Positions 1 to 52,152 of a DNA stretch of 64,000 nt are shown here, piece by piece; position 1 is the first letter of the stretch, and each line of letters starts with the position of its first letter. Under the pieces are notes generated by a model. It saw only the letters and a program-made list of their open reading frames with translations, did no database searches and was not told where the DNA came from. The translations under genes were made by a program, and so were the position numbers. Origin of the DNA: Alicyclobacillus sp. SP_1 (GTDB taxonomy: Bacteria > Bacillota > Bacilli > Alicyclobacillales > Alicyclobacillaceae); the NCBI RefSeq assembly GCF_024706985.1, contig NZ_JAMCCX010000017.1, positions 1-64,000 of the forward strand, in the 5' to 3' direction.

Positions 1-157
1 TTGCCCCACTCTGTGGACCCAGATTTCGAATAACCAGAGGGAACACCAATTCATACCATCCTAAGTTGACAGCATTGGGGGCGATCCCCGCGACGCCGAG
101 ACAGAGAAAAAACATGGCGATGACGGCGAGCCGCATCCAGCGTCTCTTTCGCTTCAT
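1..157 (-). CDS. Partial membrane protein of the conjugation operon
   Basis: This reading frame starts at 157 and stays open for 52 codons to the window edge. It overlaps the VirB4 stop in an ATGA arrangement, so it is translationally coupled to the transfer operon. The N terminus is basic (MKRKRRWMRL) and leads straight into one hydrophobic segment, so it is exported or membrane-anchored. In Firmicutes transfer operons the gene after virB4 usually encodes a peptidoglycan hydrolase (TcpG-like) or a polytopic VirB6-like protein (TcpH-like). Too little is visible to choose between them. Confidence 0.6.
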   Translation of the reverse strand, partial: MKRKRRWMRLAVIAMFFLCLGVAGIAPNAVNLGWYELVFPLVIRNLGPQSGA

Positions 158-2622
158 GACGACCGCCCCCCATCCACGGAGGTGTTGAACACATCGAGCA
201 AATCGTCCGGCGTCGGATCGATATGGATGAGACTGACCCGTCCCTCGATGTCCTTGAAGAAACAGTCCCCGGAGCGCAGGCTGCGAAACTCCTGCCAGAG
301 CGACGCCTCGTTCGGATCCAGGCCGAGCAGGACGGCGTTGTCCCGGCTGGCGCGCGGATCCTCCGTGCGAAAGCAGAAGATGGCGCCAAGGTTGTTGCGC
401 AGTTCCTCCTCGGCGATGTCGCCGGGATTCTGCGTGACGAGGATTGGAACGACACCGTAGGAGCGGCCCATGCGCACCGTTTCGTCGATCAGTTGCCGCC
501 CCTCCGGGAAGGAGCGCAAGAGCCACGCCTCGTCGATGCCAAAGAGCTTCAGGCCACCCGGTGATGTGTGAAAGAGGCGCTCACGACCGAGTGCCGCCAT
601 CAGGTACATCATCCCGACGCCAAAGCGTTCGTTCGGCGTGAAGTTGCCCGTTTCGCCGGGGGCGCGCTTGGGCAGCGGCAACCCCGCCAGGCTCGCGACG
701 ACGAACCGCGTGTCGGGGAGTGAACTGATACCGTCGTCGCGCGCGAAGACCAGCTGGCCATAGGGGCTTTTCCTATAGCCCTGAAGCCGGGTGAAGCATC
801 GCCGCGCTTCCGCACGCATGGCCTCGTGGCCACCGGATTGGCTCAGTTTCTGCAGTTCGGCCATGACCCGAAACAGGTCCCGCGACGGGGTCGCAAACGT
901 CCGCTCGACGGCCTCCATGAGGATGTCCGCACGCTCGTCGTTGCGCTGGCCGTCGAGCAGCAGGCTCAGGTAATCCTGCGCGATGGCGTGGCTTCGCTCC
1001 TCACTGTGCGCCAGGCGAAAGGGATTGATCCGCGTCCGGGATCCGGCGGACAGGCGAAGGACGGTGAGCCCGTTCGCGATTTCAGGGATGCCGGCAAAAC
1101 AACCGTCCTCGTCCTTCGGGTCGATGGAAAAGAGGCTGCCGCCCCGGTTGAAGGCGAGATAGAAGAGGAGTTTTTTCAAGACCGACTTGCCGCCGCCAAG
1201 CGTTCCGACGATCCCGATGGCGCCGCTGCGGTTGAGTTCCCTTGACATCGGCCGGGCCAGGTCGAGAAGCACGGGGGTGCCCTGGCGCGTACGGCCGATG
1301 TAATCGCCGGTCGGGTCTCCGGCATCCCGACTGCCGTGGGGAACGCCTGCGGCGAGGTACCCCGGATCCATGGGGATGGCCCACGGTTTTTTCTCCATGT
1401 CGGCGCCGGGCAGGCCGTCGAGAAAGCCCCGCGCCTGATCACCGGGTGATCGCACGACACGCAGACGCAGCGTGCTACAGAGTTGAGACAGTTGAGTCGC
1501 GCGAGCCTCCAACTCCTCGCGGGTGGACGCGAAGACGGCGAACGTGACGGTCGCACGGACAAGCGGCATCCCCTGCTGGAGTTTGTGTTCCAGAAGCCGT
1601 CCGCGATCGCCCGCCCATTCGAGCGTGAGCGGCAGTTCGCCGGTTCCGTCGACAAACTCCCGCTGTTGGTCTCTCAGCGCCTTGCGGCTGCGCTCGAGGC
1701 CGGCGGATGCCGTATGCGGTGCTTCGATCTCCAGGTGGATGCTGCATTCGACGGGATCGGATAGGTCATCGAGGCGATACAGCCACTCCTGTCCAATGTC
1801 CGAAACTTCCTCGGGCACGTCGACGAGGAAGAAAAACGTCTGCCAACTCTGCCGCGCCCCGTCATCCTGGTGCCGGATGACGAGCGTGCGCATCCGCTCC
1901 TCGATCACGGCGTCGCCCGCGACGAGAATCGGCAGCGACTGGCGCGGTTTCACCATGACGCGCTCACCGCGCACGGCGATCTGGTAACTCGGCGCAAGGC
2001 CCAGACGCGGCGCCAATTCGCCCGGCAGGGCGCGGTGAAACGGGTGACGGAGCAGCCACTCGATGTCGCCACTGTGCAACCGCTCACCTCCGAGCGCTGC
2101 GTGGACCGACTGGGCGACGAGCGACTCCGCAGAGAGGGTGTCTTCGAGCACCTGTCGGTCCATCCCGCCGGACGGGGCGGAGAGAACGTGCTGTCGGAGC
2201 GTCCGGCCGACGCCTGTGGCGAAGCGGCGAAGCGAGGCCAGCGTTTGGCCGGGCGCGGCGAGGTCCAGGTCGGGCACGGCGAATCGGGAGCGGGGAAGCT
2301 TGACGAGCAGGAACAGGGACCGGCGCCAGGGTCGTTGACCCGCCACCTTGCGGATGACCGCCTCGCGGTATCGTTCGAATTCCGCGTTCTGGCGGTCGTC
2401 GCCCGGAAAGAATCCGGTCGGACGGATGTCGTCCGTCAGGGAGAGCAGGTGGCAGGCGCCGCGATGCGCCTGCAGGAACCCGCGCAGGCTGTCGACGATG
2501 GCCCGCTTTTTCTCCGGGGATGCAAAGGCGTACGGTTGCTGCGGGATCCGGTACGCGGCCCACGCCTGGCGTCTCGCGTCAACGAGCACGTTTTGCTCGT
2601 AGTAGAGGACAGGACATTTCAT
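154..2622 (-). CDS. VirB4/TcpF-type conjugation ATPase
   Basis: An 822-residue ATPase expected to power substrate transfer and assembly of the conjugative type IV secretion channel at the inner face of the membrane. A Walker A motif (GTLGGGKSVLKK) lies near residues 470-480, and a Walker B-like GIDEAWLL near 692-699. The C-terminal half reads as a typical TraC/VirB4 motor (PILVTQNPGD, then RTEDPRAS). The ATG at 2622 is chosen because AAGGAGG lies about 7 bases upstream and because it overlaps the TcpE stop as ATGA. The frame stays open further upstream, but that extension lies over the TcpE gene and is low-quality sequence. The family assignment is firm; the subfamily name is by analogy to pCW3/Tn916-type systems. 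Confidence 0.9.
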   Translation of the reverse strand: MKCPVLYYEQNVLVDARRQAWAAYRIPQQPYAFASPEKKRAIVDSLRGFLQAHRGACHLLSLTDDIRPTGFFPGDDRQNAEFERYREAVIRKVAGQRPWRRSLFLLVKLPRSRFAVPDLDLAAPGQTLASLRRFATGVGRTLRQHVLSAPSGGMDRQVLEDTLSAESLVAQSVHAALGGERLHSGDIEWLLRHPFHRALPGELAPRLGLAPSYQIAVRGERVMVKPRQSLPILVAGDAVIEERMRTLVIRHQDDGARQSWQTFFFLVDVPEEVSDIGQEWLYRLDDLSDPVECSIHLEIEAPHTASAGLERSRKALRDQQREFVDGTGELPLTLEWAGDRGRLLEHKLQQGMPLVRATVTFAVFASTREELEARATQLSQLCSTLRLRVVRSPGDQARGFLDGLPGADMEKKPWAIPMDPGYLAAGVPHGSRDAGDPTGDYIGRTRQGTPVLLDLARPMSRELNRSGAIGIVGTLGGGKSVLKKLLFYLAFNRGGSLFSIDPKDEDGCFAGIPEIANGLTVLRLSAGSRTRINPFRLAHSEERSHAIAQDYLSLLLDGQRNDERADILMEAVERTFATPSRDLFRVMAELQKLSQSGGHEAMRAEARRCFTRLQGYRKSPYGQLVFARDDGISSLPDTRFVVASLAGLPLPKRAPGETGNFTPNERFGVGMMYLMAALGRERLFHTSPGGLKLFGIDEAWLLRSFPEGRQLIDETVRMGRSYGVVPILVTQNPGDIAEEELRNNLGAIFCFRTEDPRASRDNAVLLGLDPNEASLWQEFRSLRSGDCFFKDIEGRVSLIHIDPTPDDLLDVFNTSVDGGRSS

Positions 2623-3323
2623 CCGGTTTCCCTCCTTCGGTGGGTCTCTACAGAGGCATCGGATGCGGTCAGTGTGAGATCCGCCGGTTCCGTCACAGTC
2701 CATTCCCACATGCGCTTGCCGCGCTTGGTCCGGACCTCCTCGATGCGCCGGGCTCGCTTGTCGGGTAGAATCGCAAGGGAGAAGCGATGGGTGCGCCGGT
2801 GCCAGAGCAGCGTTGCTTTCGGATACACGCGCAGGGTGGAACCGGGTTCGAGCCACCCGTCGAGCGATTCGGCGAGAAAGAAGCGGATGTGATGTCCGTT
2901 CGATAGATCGACCGTGTGGTAACGCCTGGCGGACAGGGACCAGCGAAGCGTCCGGTGTGCGCGAGGCAACGAAATTCGCTCGAACCGCCGGATGTGTTTC
3001 TTTCGGACCAGGAACCGCACGATATCGCGCAGGTAGGCCGACGTCGATTTCCCGGCCGGATCGAGTTTGTGCGCGAGATACGCAAGAACTGCCGGACCGA
3101 CGCTGAGGGTGAGCGCCGGACCGAACGGGGAGACCCAGGCGAGGATCGGGATGACGGAGTAGAACACGAGGAACACGAGAAAGAGTTGCATCCAGAGCAG
3201 GATGAGATCTTGGTCGATCGGCATCCACAGTCGGATGTCGCCAATCTGGTACAGGACCGTGTTCACCTTGAAGAGCGATCGGTACGAATGGGAAAAGGCC
3301 TGACCCGCACGCGGTTCGGGCAT
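2619..3323 (-). CDS. TcpE-family conjugal transfer membrane protein
   Basis: A 234-residue protein with two closely spaced hydrophobic segments near residues 38-58 and 65-85 (LILLWMQLFLVFLVFY, then a second stretch). A basic cytoplasmic C-terminal domain follows (FLVRKKHIRRFERI). This layout, and its place directly before virB4, match TcpE proteins, which form part of the membrane platform of Gram-positive conjugation machines. Its stop overlaps the virB4 start by four bases. AAGGAG lies about 12 bases before the ATG, slightly far. The assignment rests on topology plus gene order, not on a diagnostic motif. Confidence 0.75.
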   Translation of the reverse strand: MPEPRAGQAFSHSYRSLFKVNTVLYQIGDIRLWMPIDQDLILLWMQLFLVFLVFYSVIPILAWVSPFGPALTLSVGPAVLAYLAHKLDPAGKSTSAYLRDIVRFLVRKKHIRRFERISLPRAHRTLRWSLSARRYHTVDLSNGHHIRFFLAESLDGWLEPGSTLRVYPKATLLWHRRTHRFSLAILPDKRARRIEEVRTKRGKRMWEWTVTEPADLTLTASDASVETHRRRETG

Positions 3324-3354
3324 GTCGCATCACACTCCTTGTTCGGCCAAGGTG

Positions 3355-3691: not shown

Positions 3692-5149
3692 TTAGAGGCG
3701 CTTGTTCCGGCCGGTCCGTTCGACCATGCGCCGACCGATGGCGGCGACGATTTGAGGGACGACGGAGTTTCCGGCCTGTTTGTAAAGCTGTGTATCTGAA
3801 CCTCCCGCCGCTTTGGCGCGGTCGAACTCGGCATCCGCCCGGCCCATGAGCCGCCAGCACTCCCGAGGGGTGAGGCGGCGGATGCGCATTTCCACGGGGA
3901 CTTTGGCAATGGCTCCGCCATGGTGGTTCAAATGCGCGGGCGCCAACCCGCTTGGATCAAACACTCGCCCCGTTTGCCCGGAGTCGTTTGGCCGTCGTGC
4001 AATGGGTCTCTGCATGGCCACTCCGGTGCGCATCTGGTGGGCATCGAGTCCTTTGTGGTAACTCGCATCCAGGCAGGTGGCCACGTCCCGGACGGTCCAT
4101 GTGGCCTCGGATCCGCGCCCTTGCCTGGTGACAAGGACTCCGTGTGGATCCATGGCCGTCAGGGTGTACATGGGCTCGCTTGGATGTTTGAAACGACGGC
4201 GTTGATGTTTTTTTAAGAAACCTGGGGTTGCGACCGCAGAGAACACTGGATTCGGGTCACGATCGCGCATGTCGGTCACGCCGTCGGCCCCTTTCGCTTG
4301 CCCTGGACACTCTGTTCTTTCGCCAATTGCGTCAACAGGATCTGTTCTGCCGATACGGAGAGGAAAAACCGTTCGTCGGCCTCGGGCTCGAGAATGACCG
4401 ACAAGGAACACGCGCTCGCGGTGTTGGGGAATACCGAACGAGGTTGCATCAAGCACATCCCATTCACAGTCATACCCGATTTCATCCAGCGCAACTTGGG
4501 CGGCAAGGAAGTCGTAGCCCCGGTTGCTGGAGAGAAAGCCGCCAACATTTTCAGCGAGCAGCCATTCGGGTCGAGCGTCTTCGGGTAGCGCTTTGATGAG
4601 GTCAAGGACGGTGAAGAACAGGCTGCTTCGTTCACCGGCAAATCCTCGCCGCGACCCTGCGACGGACAGGTCCTGGCAAGGGAAACCGAATGTCCAGACC
4701 TCGGTGTTTGGCATGGTACGGGCGTCAACGGTTCGGATGTCATCGGCAAACCACTCTCCTTCCGATTGAAAGATGGCGCTGTAGGAGCGCCTCGCAAATT
4801 TGTCGCGCTCCACGAACCCGACGCAAGACATGCCTGCGTCCTCCAGTCCGCGGCGCATGCCGCCAATGCCAGCGAACAGGTCGAGAAATCGCAATGGAAT
4901 GGGAATCCCCTCCTTGGTTTGCGGAAGAATGTATTGGCGTCGGTGTTGTTTCGGATGTCCGGGGGACGCGGGTTGTGGGGATGACATCAACGACTTGGCG
5001 TCGTCTTGAATCCTGTTCAGGACGGGCGATTGTGGAATCGTCACCTGGACGGCCGGGTCCTCCACCTCTGCCGTGGCGATCACGGTATACGATCCCTTGC
5101 CATACACTTGCATATCGTAGAGTGACTTCCATACGATCAGACCGCCCAA
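3692..5149 (-). CDS. C5-cytosine DNA methyltransferase
   Basis: Transfers a methyl group from S-adenosylmethionine to C5 of cytosine in DNA. All key motifs are visible in order: motif I FAGIGG (about 92-97), motif IV GFPCQDLS with catalytic Cys158, motif VI ENV (200-202), motif VIII QHRER (242-246), a variable recognition region, and motif X GNSVVP (about 460). No endonuclease gene is adjacent, so it is an orphan enzyme in the transfer operon, perhaps protecting incoming DNA from restriction. The first 80 or so residues do not belong to the catalytic domain. Neither the TTG at 5149 nor the internal ATGs have a convincing ribosome site, so the start is uncertain. Confidence 0.9.
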   Translation of the reverse strand: MGGLIVWKSLYDMQVYGKGSYTVIATAEVEDPAVQVTIPQSPVLNRIQDDAKSLMSSPQPASPGHPKQHRRQYILPQTKEGIPIPLRFLDLFAGIGGMRRGLEDAGMSCVGFVERDKFARRSYSAIFQSEGEWFADDIRTVDARTMPNTEVWTFGFPCQDLSVAGSRRGFAGERSSLFFTVLDLIKALPEDARPEWLLAENVGGFLSSNRGYDFLAAQVALDEIGYDCEWDVLDATSFGIPQHRERVFLVGHSRARGRRTVFPLRIGRTDPVDAIGERTECPGQAKGADGVTDMRDRDPNPVFSAVATPGFLKKHQRRRFKHPSEPMYTLTAMDPHGVLVTRQGRGSEATWTVRDVATCLDASYHKGLDAHQMRTGVAMQRPIARRPNDSGQTGRVFDPSGLAPAHLNHHGGAIAKVPVEMRIRRLTPRECWRLMGRADAEFDRAKAAGGSDTQLYKQAGNSVVPQIVAAIGRRMVERTGRNKRL

Positions 5150-5350: not shown

Positions 5351-6253
5351 TCATGAGCCGTTTCCCCTTGCCGTCCGGTTCGAAAACGGGTGTTCCCGCG
5401 TCTGTTTCCCAAGGGGAATCATCCCGTCATCCGTTCGACCTTCCAGGCGCGGGAAATCTTCAAAGGAACCCTGGCCGCCGGTCCCCATCCAAACGGGTCC
5501 GAAGGAACCCTGCTCCAAAAGACTCTGCTCTGTCGCTGTCCAGACCGCCGGAACCGGTTGCCTGCGAAATGCCTCCTCGTTCATATCCCGCCACAGCTCG
5601 AGAATCCGCAGGGAACGAGGGTGTTCCCGGGTGATGAACAGCACGTTGGCAAGCGTCATGTCGCTCCAGTATTGTTTGAGCACGTCCGCATACTGCCAGA
5701 GTTTGTTGTGGATGACCCACAGGTGCTCACTGCCAGTGTCATATTCCACATGAAACGTGGTTTCACTTTGATCCGAAAATCGGTACGTACCCATCCCGTC
5801 CGGCCGCACGGGTGTGGTCTTCTTGCCTTTTTGGTCCGTCACGGTGTATCGGTTGCCCGCGTCGCGCATGCCGATCCATTCGATGAGCCCTTCTCCCCGT
5901 GGACGGAACAGGCTCCCCTTGATGAGGAGGACAAAGAACTGATTGCTGCCGTAGAGATGTCCGGCTTGCCCGCCAAGGCTTGGGGGCTGCCGCAGCAGTC
6001 GGTTTCGGTACTCCTTGGTCAGGCCGAAGGCGACCTCCATCCCGTTTTTCGTCAGGGTCCATCCTTTGACATGCCGTTTGATAAAGCCAAGGGGGAGGGG
6101 TTCCACCCATCCCTTCTCCTTCAGCTTGTGAAACGCTTGGTACAGCGTCTTTCGTTCGTAATGCAGCAGCGCAGTGAGTTGATCGATGGTGAGCAGGCTG
6201 TAGCGGTAGAGGGCAAGCAGGATCTCGCTCTCGGTTCGGCTGGGCACGAACAT
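5351..6253 (-). CDS. Replication-relaxation family protein
   Basis: A 300-residue protein with an N-terminal winged-helix-like region (LTIDQLTALLHYERKTLYQA, residues 21-40) and the general layout of the Replic_Relax family. These occur beside conjugative ATPases on Firmicutes plasmids and integrative elements, where they are thought to act in plasmid replication or DNA processing. The ATG at 6253 has AAAGGAG about 10 bases upstream. It lies between the coupling ATPase and the cytosine methyltransferase, about 200 bases before the latter. No catalytic motif is seen. The family call is by overall resemblance. Confidence 0.7.
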   Translation of the reverse strand: MFVPSRTESEILLALYRYSLLTIDQLTALLHYERKTLYQAFHKLKEKGWVEPLPLGFIKRHVKGWTLTKNGMEVAFGLTKEYRNRLLRQPPSLGGQAGHLYGSNQFFVLLIKGSLFRPRGEGLIEWIGMRDAGNRYTVTDQKGKKTTPVRPDGMGTYRFSDQSETTFHVEYDTGSEHLWVIHNKLWQYADVLKQYWSDMTLANVLFITREHPRSLRILELWRDMNEEAFRRQPVPAVWTATEQSLLEQGSFGPVWMGTGGQGSFEDFPRLEGRTDDGMIPLGKQTREHPFSNRTARGNGS

Positions 6254-6432: not shown

Positions 6433-6803
6433 GGTCGGCATCGTTATGGTCGGTCACTGCCCCGGCATTGGCCGACTTTGCCGGGGGCGCCGTCCTCCGA
6501 GGCGCTGTACACGGCCTCCATGTCTCGGTCCACTTGGACGGCGGGTCGGCCGTCCACCCGGTCCGAGCGGCGGAGCACAGCCTCGGCGCGCTCGACGTGG
6601 CCAGCCGGAGCCAGTGGTCGGTCGGCATCGTTATTTTCGGGCACTCCCCCGGCGTTCGCCGACTTTGCCGGGTGTGCTGCCCTTTGAGGCGCTGTACATG
6701 GCCGCAATATCCCGGTCCACCTGGTCGGCGGGTCGGCCGTCCACCCGGTCCGAGCGGCGGAGCACAGCCTCGGCCCACTCGACGTGGCCAGCCGGGGCCA
6801 GCG
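6433..6803 (-). repeat. 187-bp imperfect tandem duplication of the coupling-protein 3' end
   Basis: Copy A spans about 6433-6616 and copy B about 6620-6803, offset by exactly 187 bases. Copy B encodes the real C terminus of the coupling ATPase (APAGHVEWAEAVLRRSDR to the stop at 6631). Copy A encodes a near-identical tail (APAGHVERAEAVLRRSDR) ending at the equivalent stop at 6444. Because 187 is not a multiple of three, copy A is out of frame with the gene and is a dead partial copy. Several substitutions between copies show the duplication is not brand new. Confidence 0.85.
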
Positions 6804-8961
6804 GATTGTTCATGGTGAACAGTTCCGTGATGCCGCCGTCGAGTTTGGTGCGCACGAGCGCATTCATCTCCGGCAGGGTCATCAGTTCACGGGCCGAGAC
6901 GTCGGGCCTCAGCCACTTGGTCAACCGGTCCGCATCGGGGCCGCCGAGTTGCAGCAGGATAAGCGTGCCGACGTTGCCGAGAATGCCGGCGAGAACGGGG
7001 TCGGGCAGTTGGTCGAGGTACTGCGTCGCAAGAAACAGGGTCAGGCCGAATTTGCGGTCTTCGGCGAGAATTTTTTGCAGCACGTTGACCGCGTACAAGT
7101 GGCTCTCATCGCCGAAGAAAACATGGAGCCGGGATCGATGCTCGGGTCGGCGCTTACACGTGAAATGCAGGTCGATAAGGTAGAGTCCGGCGATGATTTT
7201 CACCGCGTCCGCGGTGCAACCGGATCCGTCGATGAGCACGATATGGCCTTCGTCCATGACGGACCGCGTGTCAATCGCGCTCTGGGTCTGGCCGAGGATG
7301 CGCCGCAGAGAAGGGTAGGTGGTGAGCGCGCCGAGCTTGTTCCAGATGGGGCCGAGGTGATCGGCGATGTTGCGGATTTCCGCGAACTCGCCCGTCCAGA
7401 ACTGCTGCAAATGGGGCGAGAGTTTGGGAAGCAGTGCCTTGCGAAACCCTTCGTCCGCGAACAGATGGGCAATGCCAAGCACGGTCTGGGGCGGGTGTTG
7501 CAAAAGCGACAGGACGTTGTTGCGCAGGTAATGTTCCGATCGCGGCCGCGAACCCGGCCACAGTTCCTGCAGCGTGTTGATGAATTCCCCGGTGATCGCC
7601 TCGGCGTCCGTTCGGTTGTCCATGCGAAACAGGTTGAGGCCGCGTGGATAGTCGGTCGGGCCGAGCGGAATGACGTGCACCTTGTCCTGCAGGCTCGGCG
7701 GGATGTGCGCGAGAAGCCGTTCGACGGCGCCGCCGTGCGGGTCAAAGAACGTGAAACCAGGTGCGGATTCAGGATGTTGTTGCATCTGGTCGATCATCCC
7801 GAGCATGATCTGCAGAAGCGCGGTCGTCTTGCCGGAACCGGTCGCCCCGGCGAGAAACGTGTGCTTGGCCGCCTGGTTAAACGGAACGCGGATTTCCCGG
7901 TCTTCAAAGCCGGGGAAATTGGACCATCCGAGCCGAAGGCCGTCACAAGACGATGCCTTCGGAGGGGGGAGAATCAGGCCCTGGGCGGCCGCCACGTGGC
8001 GAAAGCAGGGCTGGCTGCTGTCCGGCAGATGGACGAGGGAGGCCAGTTCCCCGGACGTCCACCACATGGGACGGGTTGGCGTGCCGCGTTCGAGCGCTTT
8101 GGCGAGCCTGCGTTTGGATATGCGGCTTGGCACCACCCACCCAAGTTGCCGCAGTTGTCCCATCGCGGCCAGAACCGCCGGAAGGTGTGCCCTGGCCGCA
8201 GTGGACCCATCGGCGAACAGGCGGATGGACACCTGGAACGGTCGTTGGTTGGGTGCGAGGCGCGTTCGGATGGCCTGCTTTTGTACGGTTTCCCGTTCAC
8301 TCAGAACCCGTACCGGTGGCTTCGGGGGCGCCGGTTTGCCGAACACCCCGGCGAGAATCTCGGTTGGCGAGAAGGTTTCCGATCTCTTGCTTTCACCGGG
8401 CACACGGGACTTTTGCAAGAGAGCGCGGCGGAACCGGCCTTCCCGGAGCGGCTTCATCCAAATCTCAAACACCCAACGGCTGGCCGTATCCGAGCCGATG
8501 GCGGTCAGGATCCCGTTTAGCGGATCGTCCACGGAACCGGCGTGTGACAGGGCGAGCGGCAGCCACGGATCCAGTCCGTACCCGCCCTTGCGCACCGCGA
8601 GTGCGACGGTCGGCCGGGTCGTCGACAGGTTGGCCGTGGGGGAGGCGGTTTCCGGGATCAAGTGCACGGTCGGATACGAGGCCGCAAAAGCGGCGCGAAA
8701 CGCCAGGGCACGGTCGACCGATAGGCCGAAATACAGGCGAATGCCCGTCTGGCCGGGATCCTTGACCGCCAGGAACCGAATGGGCAGGGCACTCTGCCAT
8801 CCCCACTTTTGCCGTTGCCAAGCGATTGCGGCCAGTGACTGCACGAATGTGTGTGCCTGCGCGGACGTAAAGGAACCATCCGTGGGCAGGGCGACCCGGA
8901 AATAGGTGAGGGGATGGGGTGTTTGTTTCTTTTGAGCATCTTTTTGAATCCCTTCGCTCAA
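6631..8961 (-). CDS. VirD4/TraG-type coupling ATPase
   Basis: A 776-residue DNA-pumping ATPase that should link the DNA-relaxase complex to the transfer channel. Walker A is GATGSGKTTAL near residues 366-376, and Walker B is FFGDESHLY near 612-620. A TraG/TraD-like C-terminal motor (FLATQYLDQLPDPVLAG) follows. No clear N-terminal membrane segment is seen, so it belongs to the soluble or recruited kind. The start is TTG at 8961, inside a TTGA overlap with the Dam gene stop, with AGAGGTGA about 8 bases upstream. The gene's last 57 codons are duplicated downstream. Confidence 0.9.
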   Translation of the reverse strand: MSEGIQKDAQKKQTPHPLTYFRVALPTDGSFTSAQAHTFVQSLAAIAWQRQKWGWQSALPIRFLAVKDPGQTGIRLYFGLSVDRALAFRAAFAASYPTVHLIPETASPTANLSTTRPTVALAVRKGGYGLDPWLPLALSHAGSVDDPLNGILTAIGSDTASRWVFEIWMKPLREGRFRRALLQKSRVPGESKRSETFSPTEILAGVFGKPAPPKPPVRVLSERETVQKQAIRTRLAPNQRPFQVSIRLFADGSTAARAHLPAVLAAMGQLRQLGWVVPSRISKRRLAKALERGTPTRPMWWTSGELASLVHLPDSSQPCFRHVAAAQGLILPPPKASSCDGLRLGWSNFPGFEDREIRVPFNQAAKHTFLAGATGSGKTTALLQIMLGMIDQMQQHPESAPGFTFFDPHGGAVERLLAHIPPSLQDKVHVIPLGPTDYPRGLNLFRMDNRTDAEAITGEFINTLQELWPGSRPRSEHYLRNNVLSLLQHPPQTVLGIAHLFADEGFRKALLPKLSPHLQQFWTGEFAEIRNIADHLGPIWNKLGALTTYPSLRRILGQTQSAIDTRSVMDEGHIVLIDGSGCTADAVKIIAGLYLIDLHFTCKRRPEHRSRLHVFFGDESHLYAVNVLQKILAEDRKFGLTLFLATQYLDQLPDPVLAGILGNVGTLILLQLGGPDADRLTKWLRPDVSARELMTLPEMNALVRTKLDGGITELFTMNNPLAPAGHVEWAEAVLRRSDRVDGRPADQVDRDIAAMYSASKGSTPGKVGERRGSARK

Positions 8962-9755
8962 GGGATATTCACCTCTTCTCCAACATCAAGTGAGTAGTTT
9001 CGGATGAGGAGTTCACCCGACTTCTTGCCCGTTTTCTGTCGGCCGATGGAGTACAGGACATCGATGGGCTCGATGTGAAAATCGGCGTACCATTGGCGAA
9101 CTTCTGAATGGTCGTTGATGCTAAGCAGCCATTTGCCCTGCACGCTCGCGAGGGTGTCGCGCAGGCGGAGGTGATCCTCTCGGGTGAACGGGTGTTGGTG
9201 GTACCCCGTCAGGCCAAAGTACGGCGGGTCGCAATAGAAAAACGTGTCCGGCCCGTCGTAGCGGGGAATGACGTCGTGGAACGGTCGGTTTTCAATGTAG
9301 ACGCCGCAGAGACGTTCGTGCGCGGCTGCGATGCGGGGCCGGATGGCGGAGAAATCAAAGGCCGGTTTGCCACGTCCGTATCCCCAGTCATAGGAGTCGT
9401 TATACTTCCCGCCGAAGTGCGATTGTACCCGGAAATAAAAATCGTACGCGCGTAATAATGGGTCACGCTCGGTGTGGCGGCGGTCCATGACGCGGACGAA
9501 CTCTTCGCGGGCGTACAGCGTCCAATCAAATTGGCGCAGGAAACCCTCCCAGTCGGACTTGACCACGTGAAAGAAATGGATCAGTTCCGTGTTGACGTCG
9601 GCAATCACCTCCACTTTGGACTTTGGTTTGGCAAAGAACACCCATCCCGCGCCGAAGAACGGTTCGACATAACAGGTATGCTCCGGAATGAGCGGGAGGA
9701 TGACCCGACGCAGTCGGGATTTACCGCCCTGCCATTTGATGGGGCTTGGGAGCAT
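8958..9755 (-). CDS. Dam-type N6-adenine DNA methyltransferase
   Basis: A 265-residue D12-class methyltransferase that methylates adenine N6 in DNA. KWQGGKSRL at the N terminus and EPFFGAGWVFF (about 31-41) form the S-adenosylmethionine site. CDPPYFG near residue 174 is the catalytic DPPY motif. GAGGAGGTG lies 7 bases before the ATG at 9755. It is the first gene of the transfer operon and overlaps the coupling ATPase start. No partner endonuclease is nearby, so it is an orphan enzyme. GATC specificity is typical of the family but not shown by the sequence. Confidence 0.9.
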   Translation of the reverse strand: MLPSPIKWQGGKSRLRRVILPLIPEHTCYVEPFFGAGWVFFAKPKSKVEVIADVNTELIHFFHVVKSDWEGFLRQFDWTLYAREEFVRVMDRRHTERDPLLRAYDFYFRVQSHFGGKYNDSYDWGYGRGKPAFDFSAIRPRIAAAHERLCGVYIENRPFHDVIPRYDGPDTFFYCDPPYFGLTGYHQHPFTREDHLRLRDTLASVQGKWLLSINDHSEVRQWYADFHIEPIDVLYSIGRQKTGKKSGELLIRNYSLDVGEEVNIP

Positions 9756-9801: not shown

Positions 9802-10190
9802 CCCTGCGTTCGAACCTTTTTTCTGTGATAACAGGATACCTCCTTAGAGCAGGGGGAGTGGTGCGCAACGGGTGCCACAAGTGTCCCGGAGGCTGCACAA
9901 GCGCAAGTACGGCGGTGACGTGATGTACGCAGGACACGGTGCAGCAGGTGGGGTACGGCACACTTCGAGTGGATCTTCCCTATACATCAAGGGATTCACC
10001 TCCTTTCCTGTCGATCAGAAAGGCGGCAGAATTGCGGCCACGGGAAGAGGAATGGGTACTCTCGCATCGTATCTCAGGAAATCGGGGGAAGGGTGCGCCG
10101 ACCGTGCCAAACCCGTCTCGTGAGGACTTGATGAATGTTCGAAACGGAGGTAATCTGTCACTCAACCAGGGAACGGGGAGGGCGATGGCC

Positions 10191-10857: not shown

Positions 10858-11301
10858 AGAACCCCACCCTCATCATCAAGGATGCTTTCTTGACCGTCCG
10901 GGCGATTTTATTTCCGGAGAATTTCCGCCCCTCCGAACGAAGCCGAGTGTTCGTGAGTCTGACCAATCGATCCGTTGCACAGAGAAAACCGCTTGGGATG
11001 GCTGTTATCAAAAGCTGTATGGTAGAAAAAGTATAGCATCTTCATCAAAATCTGAACCTTAAAATTTGGCAAGGTTGATCGGCATGCCACCCGTGGGCCT
11101 ACCCCGCCCCGAAAGGCGGGTTCCCTGTGTAGACCTGTCGAGTCGATGTCTATAAACACGTCTGCGATCGCCGGATGACGGCCGAACGGTGATCCGCTCT
11201 CTGAGTCAAGTACATACGATCACTTGCTACACGTCCACGTACAGGAACTTGCCAGTTGTGTGTTGAATATTCAGAGTACGACATTGAAAGGGTGTGAGTC
11301 C
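10858..11301. other. Intergenic region with a short GC-rich hairpin
   Basis: This 444-base stretch has no gene that can be supported. It contains an AT-rich part (about 11015-11065), suited to promoters for the ImmA-like gene on the minus strand, and a small hairpin with CCCGCC and GGCGGG arms near 11104-11121. No tRNA, riboswitch or insertion-sequence end was recognised. Confidence 0.5.
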
Positions 11302-12792
11302 TTGTTCATCTACCCGGATCTGACAGACTCCCTGCAGCAGCTGTGGGCAGCGGGTTTGGTCATCAGCCCGTGGTTGGCCGGTGTCGATGGCAGCGCCCGG
11401 TTTGACCCGGACATCCATGAAATGTTGAACGTGCGCGCCCGTGAGTGTGCCCTCATCCACTGGACGGAGGCACAGCGTGGCCGTGTGCTGGGGGATTTGC
11501 CGGCTCCGGAACGGATGCCGCAGATTGCGGTGTACGAAACGGCCGCGTCCACCGCCGTATACTTCGCACACCAGCAAACCGGCGAGTTGGATGTGACAGA
11601 AGCGCTGGCTCGCGACGCGATCCGCCGAGTGGAATCTTTTATCGACCGGCATGGGTTTGGCGTCTTGCTGCAGTTGTACATGCTCGTGACCAGTTGGGAG
11701 AATTTAAACGCCCTTGCGCATTACGGAGAGATTCCGGAACGCGAGTACGTCACCGGGTCGTGGCACCGGCCGTGGGTGGATTACAGTCTTGGCGAGGAGA
11801 TTCTGTTCGTCTGCATGCTCGGGAACATTCGGCTGGAGAGAAGGGAAGAGCGCCGCTTTGTCCGGTTGACGGACGAAGGTCATCGCGTGCTGGCGAAAAC
11901 CACCGACGCACTGCAGACGGCGGGCTACTTCCGGCATCGGCTGCATACGCTCTGGGTCTCCCAATTCAATCTGTTTCACAACTACGAACAATTGGCCCGC
12001 GAGATTTGGCCATACGCCATGGACCAGCGTCGTGAGTTTCTCCGCTTCGTCGATGTGCGGCCGGGCATGCGGGTGCTGGAACTCGGTTGTGCCGATGGCG
12101 TGGTGACGTTTGATGCCGGGCTGGCGGATCAGGTCGGGTCGTCGGGAACCGTTGTGGCGGTGGATCCAGCGGCTGGCATGTTGGCGCGCGCCCGGTCGAA
12201 GCAAAGACGAAACGGGATCGACTGGGTGGAATTTCGGCAAGGAAAGGCGGAGCAACTTCCCGTGGATCAGGAACGGTTTGATCTGGCGGTTGGGGTTGGT
12301 TACTTCCATTTCACCGATCGCGCGCAAGCCCTGCAGGAAATGAAACGCGTGGTCCGGCCCGGGGGCGTCATCGCCAGTTGGCATCCCCTGAAAATGGATG
12401 TTGATGCGCCGTTTTTTCGGGAATGGTTTGCGCCCATTCTGGATTTGGCCGCCAAACGCAATGATCGACCCAGAGACTTTCTGCTGGATCCCGACGAGGT
12501 TCGCCGGAACTTTGAAGAGTTGGGGCTTCCGATATTGGAGGAGGCAGCGCCTCCCCTTGTCATGTATTTTCACGATCCGGAAAAGGTGGTTCAGCATTTT
12601 ATCCGCGGCGTCGGGTGGTTTGGAGAGGAACTTGCGTCCCTGCCGTGGAAAGCCCGAGAGGACATCATCCAGGAGTTGACGGAACGCGGCCGATGGGTGT
12701 GTGAACGGGTTCCGGCAGGTGATCGAATGATCGCTTTGCCCACACAGGCGATTCGGGCCCGCGTTCCGGAGAATCGTTTCAGGGCGGATTGA
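11302..12792 (+). CDS. SAM-dependent methyltransferase with N-terminal accessory domain
   Basis: A class I methyltransferase of about 496 residues. The catalytic half begins with motif I, VLELGCADGV, followed by the acidic VVAVDPAAGM and the later FDLAVGVGYFHF, as in UbiE-type enzymes. The first 240 or so residues are a separate domain. It ends in a winged-helix-like segment (RLTDEGHRVLAK) and may bind DNA or a regulator. The substrate is unknown. The TTG at 11302 is chosen because AAAGGGTG precedes it; an earlier in-frame TTG at 11224 has no ribosome site. The riboswitch follows directly downstream. Confidence 0.7.
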   Translation: MFIYPDLTDSLQQLWAAGLVISPWLAGVDGSARFDPDIHEMLNVRARECALIHWTEAQRGRVLGDLPAPERMPQIAVYETAASTAVYFAHQQTGELDVTEALARDAIRRVESFIDRHGFGVLLQLYMLVTSWENLNALAHYGEIPEREYVTGSWHRPWVDYSLGEEILFVCMLGNIRLERREERRFVRLTDEGHRVLAKTTDALQTAGYFRHRLHTLWVSQFNLFHNYEQLAREIWPYAMDQRREFLRFVDVRPGMRVLELGCADGVVTFDAGLADQVGSSGTVVAVDPAAGMLARARSKQRRNGIDWVEFRQGKAEQLPVDQERFDLAVGVGYFHFTDRAQALQEMKRVVRPGGVIASWHPLKMDVDAPFFREWFAPILDLAAKRNDRPRDFLLDPDEVRRNFEELGLPILEEAAPPLVMYFHDPEKVVQHFIRGVGWFGEELASLPWKAREDIIQELTERGRWVCERVPAGDRMIALPTQAIRARVPENRFRAD

Positions 12793-12838
12793 AGAAGACG
12801 GACCCATCGTCGGATGCAAGAGCCACGCGCCACCAAAC

Positions 12839-12933
12839 GAAAAAAGCAAACCCTGCGAAAGCAGGGGACGCAAAGCTACAGGGACTACGGGTCGATGGTT
12901 CGGATGACCTATTGTCAGCCAGTTGCCGTTTTC
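12839..12933 (+). promoter_or_regulatory. Cyclic di-GMP-I (GEMM) riboswitch
   Basis: The core matches the GEMM-I consensus. It shows GCAAACC, then a perfect CCCTGC-GAAA-GCAGGG hairpin with the diagnostic GAAA tetraloop, then GGGACGCAAAGCTACAGGGA, a variable arm, and GTCAGCCAGTTGCCG at the 3' side. The closing stem pairs GAAAAAAGCAA (12839-12849) with TTGCCGTTTTC (12923-12933) at 9 of 11 positions. It ends 70 bases before a winged-helix regulator gene. TCCCTGT (12946-12952) can pair either with ACAGGGA in the aptamer (12878-12884) or with ACAGGGG just before the start codon (12996-13002), which suggests translational control. Confidence 0.9.
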
Positions 12934-13002
12934 AGGACGGCTTTCTCCCTGTACGCGCATTCCCTCTTTGAAATGGGTTGCCAACGAAGTGGGGGACAGG
13001 GG

Positions 13003-13359
13003 ATGGAACGTCATGGCGATGACAGCCGGATTGGGTTGGGACAGGATTGTTACCTCGATTTGGATGGCGAAGTACTCATGAAAGACGGGGGAACCCAATA
13101 CCTGACACCCATCGCCTTTCGGTTGCTTCGGTATTTGGCGGAACATTTGGGTGAGGTGCTGACCAGTGAAGACCTGATCCGCCGTGCGTGGGGCAAGAAT
13201 GGCATGGCGCCACGCGACGAACTGTACGTCTACATTCGAAAGATTCGCCTGGAACTGGAGGATGATCCCGATGAGCCGACATGCCTAAAAACCATGCGCC
13301 ATCGCGGATACGTCCTGTACGCGCGTCAGAAGGAAAAAAGCCCGTGCGGCGCACCCTGA
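13003..13359 (+). CDS. Stand-alone OmpR/PhoB-type winged-helix DNA-binding protein
   Basis: A 118-residue protein made almost only of the trans_reg_C winged helix. LTPIAFRLLRYLAEHLGEVL, then EDLIRRAWG, and VYIRKIRLELEDDP followed by KTMRHRGYVLY correspond to the recognition helix and C-terminal hairpin of OmpR-family regulators. No receiver domain is present. The ATG at 13003 lies after GGGGGACAGGGG. The upstream c-di-GMP riboswitch implies second-messenger control of its synthesis. It may tune transcription of nearby element genes or of surface structures. Target genes are unknown. Confidence 0.8.
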   Translation: MERHGDDSRIGLGQDCYLDLDGEVLMKDGGTQYLTPIAFRLLRYLAEHLGEVLTSEDLIRRAWGKNGMAPRDELYVYIRKIRLELEDDPDEPTCLKTMRHRGYVLYARQKEKSPCGAP

Positions 13360-13363
13360 TCCG

Positions 13364-13954
13364 TCAGTCTGCGTCATCCGGCGCCGACCCTTCGGAAGAT
13401 GGGTTGCTGGAAAGCTGCAGCGCACGGTGGATGAAATCGCGGACGAATGTGCGTTGGTCCTTGGTCAAGGGAACACCGTGGTAGGATACATTCTCTTGGT
13501 TCAGCAGGACGTCCAGATCCAGGGGCTGGCGGTCCGTGGCCCCGACGAGGTAGTCGGGATCCACCTGCAGCGCGTCCGCCAATCGCCCAAGCGCTTGGCG
13601 GCCTGGCAATCGGCTGCTGCCGAATTCCCACTGTTCGATGGTTCGCGGCGAAAGATGACACAACTGCGCCAAGTCGGAGGCACTCATCTGCCGGGCCAGC
13701 CGGGTGGTGCGAAGGCGATGGGCGAACATCATATGCTGGTCGTCCAGATAGCCGGCCGCCTGGAGAACCTCTCCGTAGGCCATGCCCAGCGCCTGGGACA
13801 ACGGAGCCAGCGTACCGGCCTTTGGCTTTCGTTTGCCGTTTTCTATGAGCGAGATGTACCCAGGTGTGAGGGCTGCCCTCTTGGCCACCTCGTGCACGCT
13901 TAATTTTCTCTCCTTGCGCTGTCTGCGCAACCAGGCGCCGAATGCCTCGTCCAT
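13364..13954 (-). CDS. XRE-family regulator with two HTH domains
   Basis: A 196-residue DNA-binding protein with two tandem Cro/CI-type helix-turn-helix domains. The first (FGAWLRRQRKERKLSVHEVA, with YISLIENGKRKP) is classical. The second (FAHRLRTTRLARQMSASDLA, with RTIEQWEFGSSRLP) is also complete. The short tail is acidic. The frame is open from a TTG at 14056, but the ATG at 13954 sits at the start of the folded domain and is preferred. It is convergent with the winged-helix gene, stops 4 bases apart. It is probably a repressor of the mobile-element functions. Confidence 0.8.
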   Translation of the reverse strand: MDEAFGAWLRRQRKERKLSVHEVAKRAALTPGYISLIENGKRKPKAGTLAPLSQALGMAYGEVLQAAGYLDDQHMMFAHRLRTTRLARQMSASDLAQLCHLSPRTIEQWEFGSSRLPGRQALGRLADALQVDPDYLVGATDRQPLDLDVLLNQENVSYHGVPLTKDQRTFVRDFIHRALQLSSNPSSEGSAPDDAD

Positions 13955-14127
13955 CGGATGTTCACTCACACCTTTCGATCCTGTGCCGTCGATCCTGTGG
14001 CGATGATACCATTCGAAGCGACGAATGCGCAATGAAAAGTTATCAAAAGTAATCAAAGATACGGTTGCCAGTTCCAGGGTACGCGTCTTATGATGGGATT
14101 ACACAAGCGTAGACGGGAGGCGGTACC

Positions 14128-14400
14128 ATGTCGAAGGTCTCGGGGCCGATCCGGGTCAAGCCGGAGGAGTTCACACGGGCGCGGGTCCTGAAAGGGCTGT
14201 CCCAGCGGGAACTGGCCCACGCGGTCGATTACAGCATTGCCTATGTGAGTCAATTGGAGCGGGGATTTCGCAATCCCAGTCCGCAGGCCGCCCAGCAGTT
14301 TTGCCATGTGTTGGACAAGCCCTTCGACGCGCTTTTTTATCTCGTCAATGTTTACAAAAGTAAACATGAGCAAACGGGAGGTGCGGAGCATGACCACTGA
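14128..14400 (+). CDS. XRE-family transcriptional regulator
   Basis: A 90-residue single-domain regulator with a clear HTH (LKGLSQRELAHAVDYSIAYV, then QLERGFRNPS). GGGAGG lies 8 bases before the ATG. It is divergent from the two-HTH regulator with about 170 bases between the starts, a common layout for a lysis/lysogeny-like switch. It overlaps the next small gene by 11 bases, so it heads a three-gene operon (14128-15018). Targets are unknown. Confidence 0.85.
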   Translation: MSKVSGPIRVKPEEFTRARVLKGLSQRELAHAVDYSIAYVSQLERGFRNPSPQAAQQFCHVLDKPFDALFYLVNVYKSKHEQTGGAEHDH

Positions 14401-14557
14401 AAAACGTTCAACACTGGCTGGGAGGCCGGCGCGTGCCAAGGATGACATGCGCCGTTACCCGCAGGGGATGCAGGAGTACGAGAAACTGATGCGGCATGAC
14501 GCCTTTCGCCGGGTGAAGGGACGCGTGCGGCAGACCAAGTGGGCGGATACACGATGA
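14390..14557 (+). CDS. Small hypothetical protein
   Basis: A 55-residue basic, soluble protein (MTTEKRSTLAGRPARAKDDM and on). The ATG at 14390 follows GGGAGGTGCGGAGC. It overlaps the XRE gene by 11 bases and its own stop overlaps the next start as ATGA. The tight coupling supports it as real. No family is recognised. Confidence 0.6.
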   Translation: MTTEKRSTLAGRPARAKDDMRRYPQGMQEYEKLMRHDAFRRVKGRVRQTKWADTR

Positions 14558-15018
14558 CGGACCCGCGCCTGCACCAGATTGAAACCTGGTTGTACGCCTA
14601 TCCAGCCTGGCAGCGGCGGCTGAAGAGCCTGCGGACGCAACTGGACGACTATCCCCGGGTTCGCTGCGCATTTCGTCCGGCGCCTTCGTTCGTGAAGGGA
14701 GAGATCAGCGATCCCACGTACGACGCCGTGGAGAAACGGATGGTCATCGAAGAGCAGCAGATTCGGCCTCTGGAGTTTCGGATCCGATTGCTTGAGAACG
14801 CCTTGTCCGTATTGACCGGGGAAGAAATGGCTTTTGTGAAGCTGAAGTACTTTGAACAGAAGAACAACACGATCGCGTGGGAACAGTTGTTTTTGTCACG
14901 CCGATCCTTTTTTCGTCAGCGGGTGGCCATTCTCGACAGACTGTTCGAGGCGCTGGGCGGTGAATTTGCGCTCATTTGGGAAGAGGGCGATTCCCACACA
15001 CGGACCGCATCAAGGTGA
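14554..15018 (+). CDS. RinA/ArpU-like phage-type transcription activator
   Basis: A 154-residue protein with the layout of ArpU/RinA-like late regulators. It has an N-terminal helical region, then IEEQQIRPLEFRIRLLENAL and a sigma-region-4-like helix-turn-helix (LTGEEMAFVKLKYF, then TIAWEQLFLSRRSFFRQRVA). Such proteins activate packaging or late genes in phages and are found in integrated elements. The ATG at 14554 overlaps the previous stop. No structural phage genes are in the window, so it is either an element regulator or a phage remnant. Confidence 0.6.
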   Translation: MTDPRLHQIETWLYAYPAWQRRLKSLRTQLDDYPRVRCAFRPAPSFVKGEISDPTYDAVEKRMVIEEQQIRPLEFRIRLLENALSVLTGEEMAFVKLKYFEQKNNTIAWEQLFLSRRSFFRQRVAILDRLFEALGGEFALIWEEGDSHTRTASR

Positions 15019-15378: not shown

Positions 15379-15579
15379 GTTCGGATGGTGACAGCGTAGG
15401 CCGTTTCGTGTGACCGGGGGTGCCACGGACGTGACAAATCCGTCTTTCAGTGGATGAACTCAGGCGTACAGTCCTTTGACGTCTGCGAAAAAAGAACGTT
15501 TCGGTTGGCACTCGGGCGGCACTCGCCCCACATGTTTGCGTGGTAGTCTCGTCATACCGAGAAAAAGGAGGGAAACCAG

Positions 15580-28604: not shown

Positions 28605-28893
28605 TCTCTGGTCATACCCGCTGCATCTTCTGAGGCAACGGTTTGCCCAATGCGTCTGTCCATGGGATGCGTATGTGTGGAATCAGTTCCGTCCGTAGTG
28701 GATTTATTCCGTACCGCTACGCCAGCAGATATGCCTATTTCTGATTCTTTGAACTTCCATTTCTACGGGCAGCCCGGCGTTGATGCATGTCTTTCTTGTA
28801 GATTCAGCAAGTCCAATTGCAATTCTTGTTGTGGCACCGTCATGGCACCCTGGCTCCTGTGTCCCAGAGGTAACATGACACTGTACGATGCTA

Positions 28894-29704: not shown

Positions 29705-30241
29705 TTAATCATAAGAAAAATCAGTAATCGTGAAGAAAATCAAGCCGCCTGGCCCGTAATGAAGAGTTTCTGGGCACTTTATTTCTGCAATTTGGAACGG
29801 TAAGGGAAAACTTATAAGTACAACCGCTTCGCATGCGGTAGCAGATCCTTTTTGAATCGTGATGATGAAATTTCGCCATCGCCCGCCCGGCTCTCGACTT
29901 TCCACAAAGAATTTCACCCTGTACGGCTTGTCGTCCAGATTCACCGACACATACACACGATGGATTTTGTAGAGTCCGCCGTCCACGCAAAGATGAGGGA
30001 TGTCGTGTTGCCGCAACCAAGGACGCGAGTCGGTTTTGGCACTGTCGCGGCACCGATACCCCGGTAGGCCGTGATACCGTGTACGTGATGGGAGGTGGGT
30101 CAATCCAGATCCGGTGTGCCGGCATGACCGGTCATGGACTTCATGCCACGGATCGCACCGTGTTGTGTACTCTTCACCGGTTTCCTCTCGCTCATAACAC
30201 CGTTTTCGGCTCCATTCCAAACGAAAAATTTTCGCAGTCAA
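29705..30241 (-). CDS. Hypothetical protein, start uncertain
   Basis: An open frame of up to 178 codons. The C-terminal two thirds look protein-like (YKIHRVYVSVNLDDKPYRVK and FVESREPGGRWRNFIITIQK), while the first 70 codons do not. The TTG at 30241 lacks a ribosome site and abuts the next operon's ribosome site. A shorter gene or a decayed remnant is possible. No family is recognised. Confidence 0.3.
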   Translation of the reverse strand: MTAKIFRLEWSRKRCYEREETGEEYTTRCDPWHEVHDRSCRHTGSGLTHLPSRTRYHGLPGYRCRDSAKTDSRPWLRQHDIPHLCVDGGLYKIHRVYVSVNLDDKPYRVKFFVESREPGGRWRNFIITIQKGSATACEAVVLISFPLPFQIAEIKCPETLHYGPGGLIFFTITDFSYD

Positions 30242-30257
30242 GGAAGGAGATGTGACC

Positions 30258-34690: not shown

Positions 34691-34702
34691 GAGGGAACGG
34701 CC

Positions 34703-35614: not shown

Positions 35615-35628
35615 GGAGGGGGTGACAG

Positions 35629-36444: not shown

Positions 36445-36512
36445 GACCGGCACCTCGCTGGCACCCGAGTGACGGTCTGGAGAGGTACGGTGGGAAAGGA
36501 GGTGGTGGGCGT

Positions 36513-36707
36513 GTGGCACATGCCGTTTTAAAGAGAGCATGGAACTGGGTGTGCGGTGAGCACGGGGGCATGATGGACGAGTACGTCACGATGGCCGGGT
36601 TCTGGATCTTCTCGACCGTCGTCGTTCTTGTCGCCGCCGGGCTGATCTGGGGCGCTCTGTCGGGAGATTTAAAAGCCATGGTGAGCGATCTCACCAATCT
36701 GTTTTGA
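36513..36707 (+). CDS. flp: Flp-type major pilin precursor
   Basis: A 64-residue prepilin. AAAGGAGGTGG lies 9 bases before the GTG at 36513. The leader ends at HG, and the mature protein would begin GMMDEY, with Glu at +5 and Tyr at +6 exactly as in Flp pilins. A single hydrophobic helix follows (FWIFSTVVVLVAAGLIWGAL). The A24 peptidase encoded at 40086 is the likely processing enzyme. The protein would form the pilus shaft. Confidence 0.85.
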   Translation: MAHAVLKRAWNWVCGEHGGMMDEYVTMAGFWIFSTVVVLVAAGLIWGALSGDLKAMVSDLTNLF

Positions 36708-36732
36708 CGAAATCAAGGAGGGGGAAAAGCCC

Positions 36733-37029: not shown

Positions 37030-37098
37030 CCTCATCCGCGTTTTCCTCGGGGCGGGCCGCCACGGTCTGCCCCCATTTGTTTTTGGGGGGTGAACACG

Positions 37099-38048: not shown

Positions 38049-38055
38049 ATCGATC

Positions 38056-39423: not shown

Positions 39424-39437
39424 AGGGGGTATCCGAA

Positions 39438-40046: not shown

Positions 40047-40085
40047 AAAGCGGGGCACCCTTACGGAAATAGAAAGGAAAGGCAG

Positions 40086-52135: not shown

Positions 52136-52152
52136 CAAGGGAGGTGCACTGG

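Follow-up and report, generated by a model that had tools for sequence, protein, structure and literature searches.

How would a c-di-GMP riboswitch set before a small DNA-binding protein act, and which genes would it govern? This question arises from a locus in a 64-kb stretch of DNA (the window), in which a sequence-only reading had described a near-consensus GEMM-I aptamer ahead of a stand-alone OmpR-type regulator. When the window was scanned with Rfam cmscan against 4227 families, the sole match above its gathering score was RF01051, the c-di-GMP-I (GEMM-I) aptamer, at 12835-12930 on the + strand. The match scores 70.4 bits against a cut-off of 35 (E 9.1e-12) and is complete, with all 87 model positions (1-87) covered. 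This Infernal search with the Rfam GEMM model, which the sequence-only reading had proposed as a check, bears out the aptamer and moves its beginning from 12839 to 12835. The host genome holds five c-di-GMP-I aptamers and 13 GGDEF matches, which suggests that a c-di-GMP signal is probably in use there. Another of these aptamers lies on contig C13 (fetched as 65852-68962; aptamer at 1501-1611 of that piece, - strand), about 270 nt before an XRE gene (878-1231, -) that looks SinR-like by eye.

The gene downstream of the window aptamer (13003-13359, +; ATG at 13003, stop ending at 13359) encodes a 118-aa protein that matches Pfam Trans_reg_C at residues 34-105 with 65 bits (cut-off 26.2) and shows no Response_reg match in Pfam, in agreement with the earlier description of a stand-alone OmpR/PhoB-type winged-helix protein that has no receiver. 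Its sequence relatives in the PDB are the DNA-binding domains of VicR, WalR, KdpE, and PhoB. An AlphaFold2 model built with eight sequences has a mean pLDDT of 47.8, and the segment RDELYV is invariant across the eight sequences aligned. Plasmids and phages gave 332 and 21 records of relatives, respectively, all below 60% identity; the 20 plasmid relatives listed are annotated as response regulators or located at such genes, and most of the phage relatives listed carry no annotation. The viral contigs searched with the protein yielded no relative, and the search of genome contigs gave one distant match, in a 257-residue ORF of Paenibacillus jilunlii (38%).

We searched 59 genomes of the order with the winged-helix protein and found, apart from the window, close orthologues at eight places (three in G003, two each in G021 and G049, and one in G037) with 65-71% identity, the next match being at 49%. 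An aptamer directly precedes the gene at all eight (L066-L073), with five matching RF01051 and three matching RF03167 (c-di-GMP-I-GGC); the same scan of nine more distant homologous loci (L074-L082) gave no aptamer above cut-off. Two of the eight orthologue leaders are identical in the printed stretch, and together with the window the set comprises eight distinct leaders. Upstream of the window riboswitch lies a 522-residue ORF with a SAM methyltransferase domain (11224-12792, +; Pfam Methyltransf_25; start codon uncertain), which adjoins the winged-helix gene in all eight orthologous loci. In seven of the eight distinct leaders, the seven readable by script, the aptamer starts 16-55 nt past the methyltransferase stop, which indicates from the gene layout that the riboswitch is intercistronic, although a promoter may lie inside the methyltransferase gene. 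On contig C3 of G049, the methyltransferase and winged-helix genes are inverted together relative to their neighbours.

The locus thus holds up as it had been described, but the description had missed its mobile-element context and a promoter motif. On the - strand to the left of the riboswitch are genes for an ATPase of presumed VirB4 type (154-3333; Pfam AAA_10, 174 bits), a C5 DNA methyltransferase (3692-5149; domain search), a replication-relaxation (relaxosome-type) protein (5351-6253; Pfam Replic_Relax, 61.7 bits), a TraD/TrwB-like coupling ATPase (6631-8961; Pfam TrwB_AAD_bind, 32.9 bits, cut-off 20.5), and a D12-class adenine DNA methyltransferase (8958-9755; domain search); the Replic_Relax protein, coupling ATPase, and VirB4-type ATPase form a conjugative-element gene set. 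The transfer operon encloses both of the DNA methyltransferases, C5 and D12. PADLOC returned only methyltransferase, HTH, and ATPase look-alikes. To the right, a convergent double-HTH XRE-type regulator (13364-14056, -; Pfam HTH_31/HTH_3), a small XRE-type regulator (14128-14400, +; Pfam HTH_3), and a RinA/ArpU-like protein (14539-15018, +; NCBIfam phage_rinA at 20.1 bits, below the cut-off of 31.9) are each present in 8/8 loci. Between the divergent XRE genes (14056-14128) there is a conserved stretch like AAAGTTATCAAAAGTNAACAAAG, which is perhaps the operator of one of them. The frame orf17623 is found in 8/8 orthologous loci and orf15580 in 3/8, neither with a Pfam family. A Tad-type (type IVc pilus) cluster including small ORFs (30252-40631, +; Pfam, NCBIfam) is kept in the orthologous loci and comprises a ParA/CpaE-like gene (31282-32622; Pfam AAA_31), a TadA-like ATPase gene (33371-34690; T2SSE 43.8 bits, over cut-off; NCBIfam TadA family 107.8 bits, below the cut-off of 373), tadB by position only (34703-35614), and a T2SSF-like gene (35629-36444; Pfam T2SSF 23.1 bits, below the cut-off of 25.2), all on the + strand. 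Past this cluster and outside the conserved core, 52144-52842 encodes a full-length OmpR-type response regulator with a receiver and Trans_reg_C.

Gene order is conserved among the orthologous loci. Transfer genes occur in five of the eight loci fetched; the fetched DNA around G021 4486926 and G003 807860 holds none or a fragment, and the contig ends in G049 C3. Tad-type genes occur in seven, and the eighth (G003 913062) is cut inside the ParA-like gene. By megablast, G003 885077-922275 and G021 4185830-4223029, which belong to two genera, are 99.8% identical over 37,206 bp, and no match was found outside this block in the 120 kb compared. Among the products encoded in the block are a TcpE protein, a lytic transglycosylase, and a serine recombinase whose domains are Resolvase, Recombinase, and zinc-ribbon. 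Judged from gene content, we conclude that the riboswitch locus is the regulatory core of a mobile conjugative element, and the near-identity across genera indicates that the element moved recently between genomes. A search for relatives of TraD gave 11 matches at 57% identity or more, all of them in the five genomes that carry the aptamer-protein unit. At the very start of the block, G003 and G021 do not yet agree and resemble one diverged gene in both, which suggests that the left edge is inexact; in a comparison for att sites, no common 9-base direct repeat lies within 60 bases of the block ends. We rejected the block as the whole element, because on the right it breaks off within a ParA-like gene that continues in G021; the window copy is itself cut by the contig start. 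A further c-di-GMP-I aptamer, at L122 6589-6680 (G055 C1:2700588-2700679), is situated roughly 16 kb away from a distantly related transfer module and precedes two ORFs that, by eye, look like those of a histidine kinase and a response regulator.

In the window leader, the aptamer contains a P1 helix read by eye as AAACG/CGUUU (12835-12839 with 12927-12931) and P1b strands at 12874-12885 and 12914-12924, and 72 nt separate its end from the winged-helix gene. A hairpin, GCCGU/ACGGC (12925-12941), has its 5' arm in common with P1, and hairpins of 4-6 pairs were seen by eye at this place in seven of the eight leaders, counting the window. Beyond it lies the putative anti-aptamer stretch UCCCUGUACGC (12946-12956), whose partner would be GCUACAGGGA (12875-12884) or, in part, ACAGGGG (12996-13002). 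The seven-letter strings TCCCTGT (12946-12952), ACAGGGA (12878-12884), and ACAGGGG are present as the sequence-only reading had claimed, and TCCCTGT has two possible partners, one in the aptamer and one just before the ATG. The aptamer pairing is longer than the claim had it, however, with eight contiguous pairs between UACAGGGA and UCCCUGUA (12877-12884 with 12946-12953), extended by GC/GC beyond a one-base bulge; P1b needs AGCUACAGGGAC, and the spacer supplies UCCCUGUACGC. Within the presumed ribosome-site region GUGGGGGACAGGGG (12989-13002), the likelier Shine-Dalgarno (SD) sequence is, by its letters, GUGGGGGA (12989-12996), the end of which is overlapped by ACAGGGG as it extends to the ATG. 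The ribosome-site partner exists in the window but is not conserved: L073, the leader closest to that of the window, has AUGGCAA before its ATG and other leaders also have other letters there, so we discarded ACAGGGG as a conserved target.

The window anti-aptamer duplex is worth -15.9 kcal/mol, a value equalled or exceeded in 0.7% of 1000 dinucleotide-shuffled spacers; for the other leaders the same test gave fractions of 0.035, 0.058, 0.117, 0.15, 0.25, 0.28, and 0.36. Against shuffled C-rich spacers, pairing between the spacer and the ribosome site was unremarkable in the window (p 0.137), and pairing with the start region stood out in no single leader (p 0.06-0.46). In transcripts ending before the SD and without ligand, the anti-P1b pairing of the window reaches a probability of 0.96, and forming the aptamer costs 11.6 kcal/mol compared with a shuffled-spacer mean of 7.2. 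The cost with the real spacer against 150 shuffled spacers gave p 0.066 for the window and 0.033, 0.318, 0.013, 0.119, 0.026, 0.291, and 0.305 for the others, with a Fisher p of 0.0009 over the eight leaders, which are related and thus do not count as independent sequences. For the whole window leader, the SD is predicted to be unpaired with probability 0.15 when the aptamer is formed and 0.52 when the anti-P1b helix is formed, which makes an OFF switch, with the ribosome site covered, the better interpretation of this leader, and the start codon shifts slightly in the opposite direction (0.52 and 0.41). L073 behaves similarly at the SD (0.25 with aptamer, 0.41 with anti-P1b), and the start region is freer in the anti-P1b state in L068 (0.04/0.72), L070 (0.22/0.68), and L066 (0.06/0.37). 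The start of L067 goes the opposite way (0.70 with aptamer, 0.33 with anti-P1b), L069 is mixed (start 0.19/0.01, SD 0.29/0.35), and L071 is level between the two states. The repression by ligand proposed in the sequence-only reading is thus consistent with the window and with five of the eight distinct leaders, in which the anti-aptamer state leaves the SD or start more accessible, but not with the two that are opposite or mixed or the one that is level. Under equilibrium folding of the full leader, the SD is largely paired in both states, and such folding by itself leaves the direction of the switch unsettled. Taken together, the disruption of the aptamer by the real spacers in silico and the absence of a conserved terminator favour, but do not prove, a translational switch that is probably OFF.

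The operons of the element start with a conserved direct repeat, tGGCACy-N5-kGGCACc, followed about 21 nt further by a -10 box. In the window, such sites lie before the Dam-TraD-VirB4 operon (9860-9877, -; -10 TATCCT), again upstream of that operon (10092-10109, -; TACGAT), before orf15580 (15506-15523, +; TAGTCT), before the Tad-type cluster (30037-30054, +; TACCGT), before the ORF of this cluster at 36741 (36448-36465, +; TACGGT), and at 28832-28849 (+; TAACAT), the last possibly part of an element remnant. All six show TAnnnT 21-22 nt past the second half-site. Intergenic footprinting also brought out GGCAC repeats before the Tad-type cluster, orf15580, and the transfer operon, among the stretches listed. 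The pattern GGCAC-N6-SSCAC gave 37 matches in nine contigs, with the window limited to 42 kb, of which we kept 31 after leaving out four from a duplicate G003 copy and two judged off-site (G037 8717 and G003 3595). Among these 31 sites, T precedes the first half-site in 28 and C follows the second (position 16) in 26, and a -10-like box stands at fixed places (G in 24, T in 20, A in 25, and T in 25); the promoters lack a conserved -35 hexamer, and their -10 is extended. In shuffled contigs, the repeat alone was expected 1.55 times for the window, where six occur, and 0.20-0.65 times for the other contigs, where 3-5 occur; the repeat plus box at one fixed spacing occurs four times in the window against 0.05 expected and 2-3 times elsewhere against 0-0.10.

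The exact repeat TGGCAC-N5-YGGCAC occurs seven times in the host genome, and its reversed control occurs once. Two of the seven are at element genes (15506 and 30037), two lie elsewhere with no box visible by eye, and the remaining three (28832, C10:63156, and C17:110081) are near-identical, two of them preceding frames that resemble TraD/Dam and Replic_Relax by eye. When a fourth near-identical copy in G046 (C266:1011) is counted, three of the four stand before TraD-, Dam-, or Replic_Relax-like frames by eye; these copies are perhaps remnants of related elements. Across the order, the full pattern gave 24 hits in nine of 59 genomes and none with the reversed control, and with a looser pattern there were 25 hits, compared with 11 for the control. 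Of these, 20 hits and three control hits come from the five genomes that carry the aptamer-protein unit, and five and eight, respectively, from the other 54 genomes. No site was found on the TraD-bearing contigs G037 C63 and G049 C27 (36-54 kb) or on the cut contig G037 C59, and relaxing the search upstream of the operon on the first two of these contigs revealed none either.

OmpR/PhoB-type proteins bind two hexamers spaced by 11 bp over the -35 region, and among the conserved-core ORFs scanned with Pfam there is no OmpR-type gene other than that of the winged-helix protein. Because the direct-repeat architecture suits an OmpR-type regulator, we propose a chain that would run from c-di-GMP through the riboswitch and the winged-helix protein to the transfer and pilus genes. 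Without c-di-GMP, the spacer at 12946-12956 would pair with the P1b strand and the ribosome site would stay free; with c-di-GMP, the aptamer would close and the freed spacer would cover the ribosome site, and the protein would be produced mainly at low c-di-GMP. It would then most likely bind the TGGCAC-N5-GGCAC repeats over the -35 region, by which the transfer operon, orf15580, and the Tad-type cluster would be controlled and their expression tied to the c-di-GMP state of the host. The aptamer, its conservation, the element, and the promoter motif are computed, and from them we infer the switch direction, the DNA target, and activation. We lean modestly toward this mechanism, in which the riboswitch sets the level of the protein by translation and the protein drives the transfer operon, orf15580, and Tad-type pilus of the element. 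Whether the winged-helix protein is what reads the TGGCAC repeats appears evenly balanced on the evidence of motif and gene content. More tentatively, the system may serve as a lifestyle gate, in which the element's own RNA senses c-di-GMP and sets a phosphorylation-free OmpR-type activator that turns on transfer and the Tad-type pilus together.

The identity of the reader is where other explanations press hardest. G018, G024, and G009 carry seven full-pattern sites, mostly before Tad-type clusters (G018 C1:339050, 345346, and 363271; G024 C1:1539449; G009 C96:197365, 203672, and C110:20626), and the fetched DNA of these loci contains no match to the winged-helix protein and, in the four of the eight fetched loci that were scanned, no aptamer above cut-off. 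G018 and G024 match the protein only in open frames whose length, 231-259 aa, is that of response regulators, and the homologues of G009 (42-47%) are located elsewhere. The presence of the promoter without a close orthologue suggests that another protein can use the motif. A single promoter hit occurs in G046, which likewise lacks a close orthologue, and G035 has a 49% homologue with a similar helix and no promoter hit. The riboswitch could therefore work as described while the protein regulates other genes (its own unit, the XRE genes) and a host OmpR-type response regulator reads TGGCAC, the regulator at 52144-52842 being one kind of candidate; the lack of a direct-repeat site before the methyltransferase gene of the window fits this arrangement as well. 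We nevertheless consider it rather unlikely, as the half-site ends differ: the first half-site is TGGCACG in 7/7 of the sites in these three genomes, whereas in the element sites position 5 is C or T 27 times out of 31 and position 16 is C 26 times, which suggests a different reader; the looser pattern adds one G018 hit with TGGCACC. RinA/ArpU-like proteins activate late phage promoters, and the gene at 14539-15018 is present in 8/8 orthologous loci, but no match at E 0.001 was found in the promoter-bearing G018, G024, and G009, so we rejected this protein as the necessary reader; relatives in G055 (36%) and G399 (28%) come with no site in the fetched DNA, and a role for it at these promoters seems decidedly improbable. 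Least probable of all is that TGGCAC-N5-GGCA marks sigma-54 promoters. It resembles the -24/-12 consensus, rpoN is in the genome, and the GG...GC spacing fits, yet the fixed -10 box argues against such promoters, for TAnnnT at this distance would lie inside the transcript; position -14 is never T and the second half-site is GGCAC or GCGCAC where sigma-54 has TTGC at -12, although the search pattern excluded T at these places.

The direction of the output is also subject to a competing view, namely that the switch is ON, or the protein a repressor, such that more c-di-GMP would bring higher expression of the transfer and pilus genes, in keeping with a sessile, surface-bound state. The freer start regions with aptamer in L067 and L069 agree with an ON switch, half-sites over the -35 region also suit a repressor, and the type IV pili of C. 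difficile rise with c-di-GMP through a riboswitch (PMC6200980). This outcome is plausible and yet stands below the reading that we prefer, because the window SD opens in the anti-P1b state and promoters of this build, with an extended -10 but without a conserved -35 hexamer, suit activation. Attenuation would offer a different route to control, with the hairpin at 12925-12941 and the following UUUCU acting as a weak terminator that is broken when c-di-GMP closes P1, with which its 5' arm overlaps. That hairpin has just five pairs and four U in five, no + strand terminator is called from the aptamer to the ATG, and the other seven leaders have no directly adjoining U-run (L068 has UUUU about 4 nt on, by eye), so we rejected termination as the main mechanism and hold attenuation to be improbable.

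If the preferred mechanism, OFF control of a winged-helix activator by the ribosome site, is true, an element that reads c-di-GMP by its own RNA would link host lifestyle directly to horizontal gene transfer, and the promoter motif provides a ready list of targets for the proposed chain. c-di-GMP governs swimming versus surface life, and surface life governs the rate of cell-cell encounters. Among the paper titles listed, none described a c-di-GMP riboswitch on a conjugative element, which is no proof of absence, and within the same scope we did not encounter the combination of an intercistronic switch, a conjugative element, a receiver-less OmpR-type protein, and neighbouring operons for transfer and pilus with a common promoter. 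SXT/R391 ICEs have diguanylate cyclase genes and so likewise tie c-di-GMP to conjugative elements, but they encode the maker of the signal, whereas the element here encodes a sensor. With two hexamers at an 11-bp interval across the -35 region, the element promoters are like those of PhoB/WalR type; unlike regulators of that type, the protein here has no receiver, and control would be by amount, through RNA. The sequence-only reading had called a phosphorylation-free relay from messenger to transcription factor unusual, which is overstated, as riboswitches before transcription factors are known from tfoY (PMC4858559) and C. difficile (PMC6200980). In Vibrio cholerae, a c-di-GMP riboswitch lies in the 5' UTR of the tfoY gene and lower c-di-GMP results in more of the factor (PMC4858559); the likeness is a riboswitch upstream of a transcription-factor gene, but TfoY is a TfoX-family factor with T6SS output and the available portion of that source mentions no conjugative element, whereas the switch here is intercistronic, on a mobile element, and before an OmpR-type factor. 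Riboswitch-controlled operons of C. difficile include the DNA-binding response regulators CD630_32650 and CD630_32670, which could relay the signal (PMC6200980) and resemble the present case as DNA-binding regulators under a c-di-GMP riboswitch; they are called response regulators, with no mobile element or common promoter motif mentioned in the part of the source at hand, and the protein here has no receiver. C. difficile prophages carry the c-di-GMP type I riboswitches cdi1_4 and cdi1_5, which lie before antitoxin RNAs and act by premature termination (PMC7699646). The locus in the window is like them in placing a c-di-GMP type I riboswitch on a mobile element and unlike them in placing it before a DNA-binding protein beside transfer genes.
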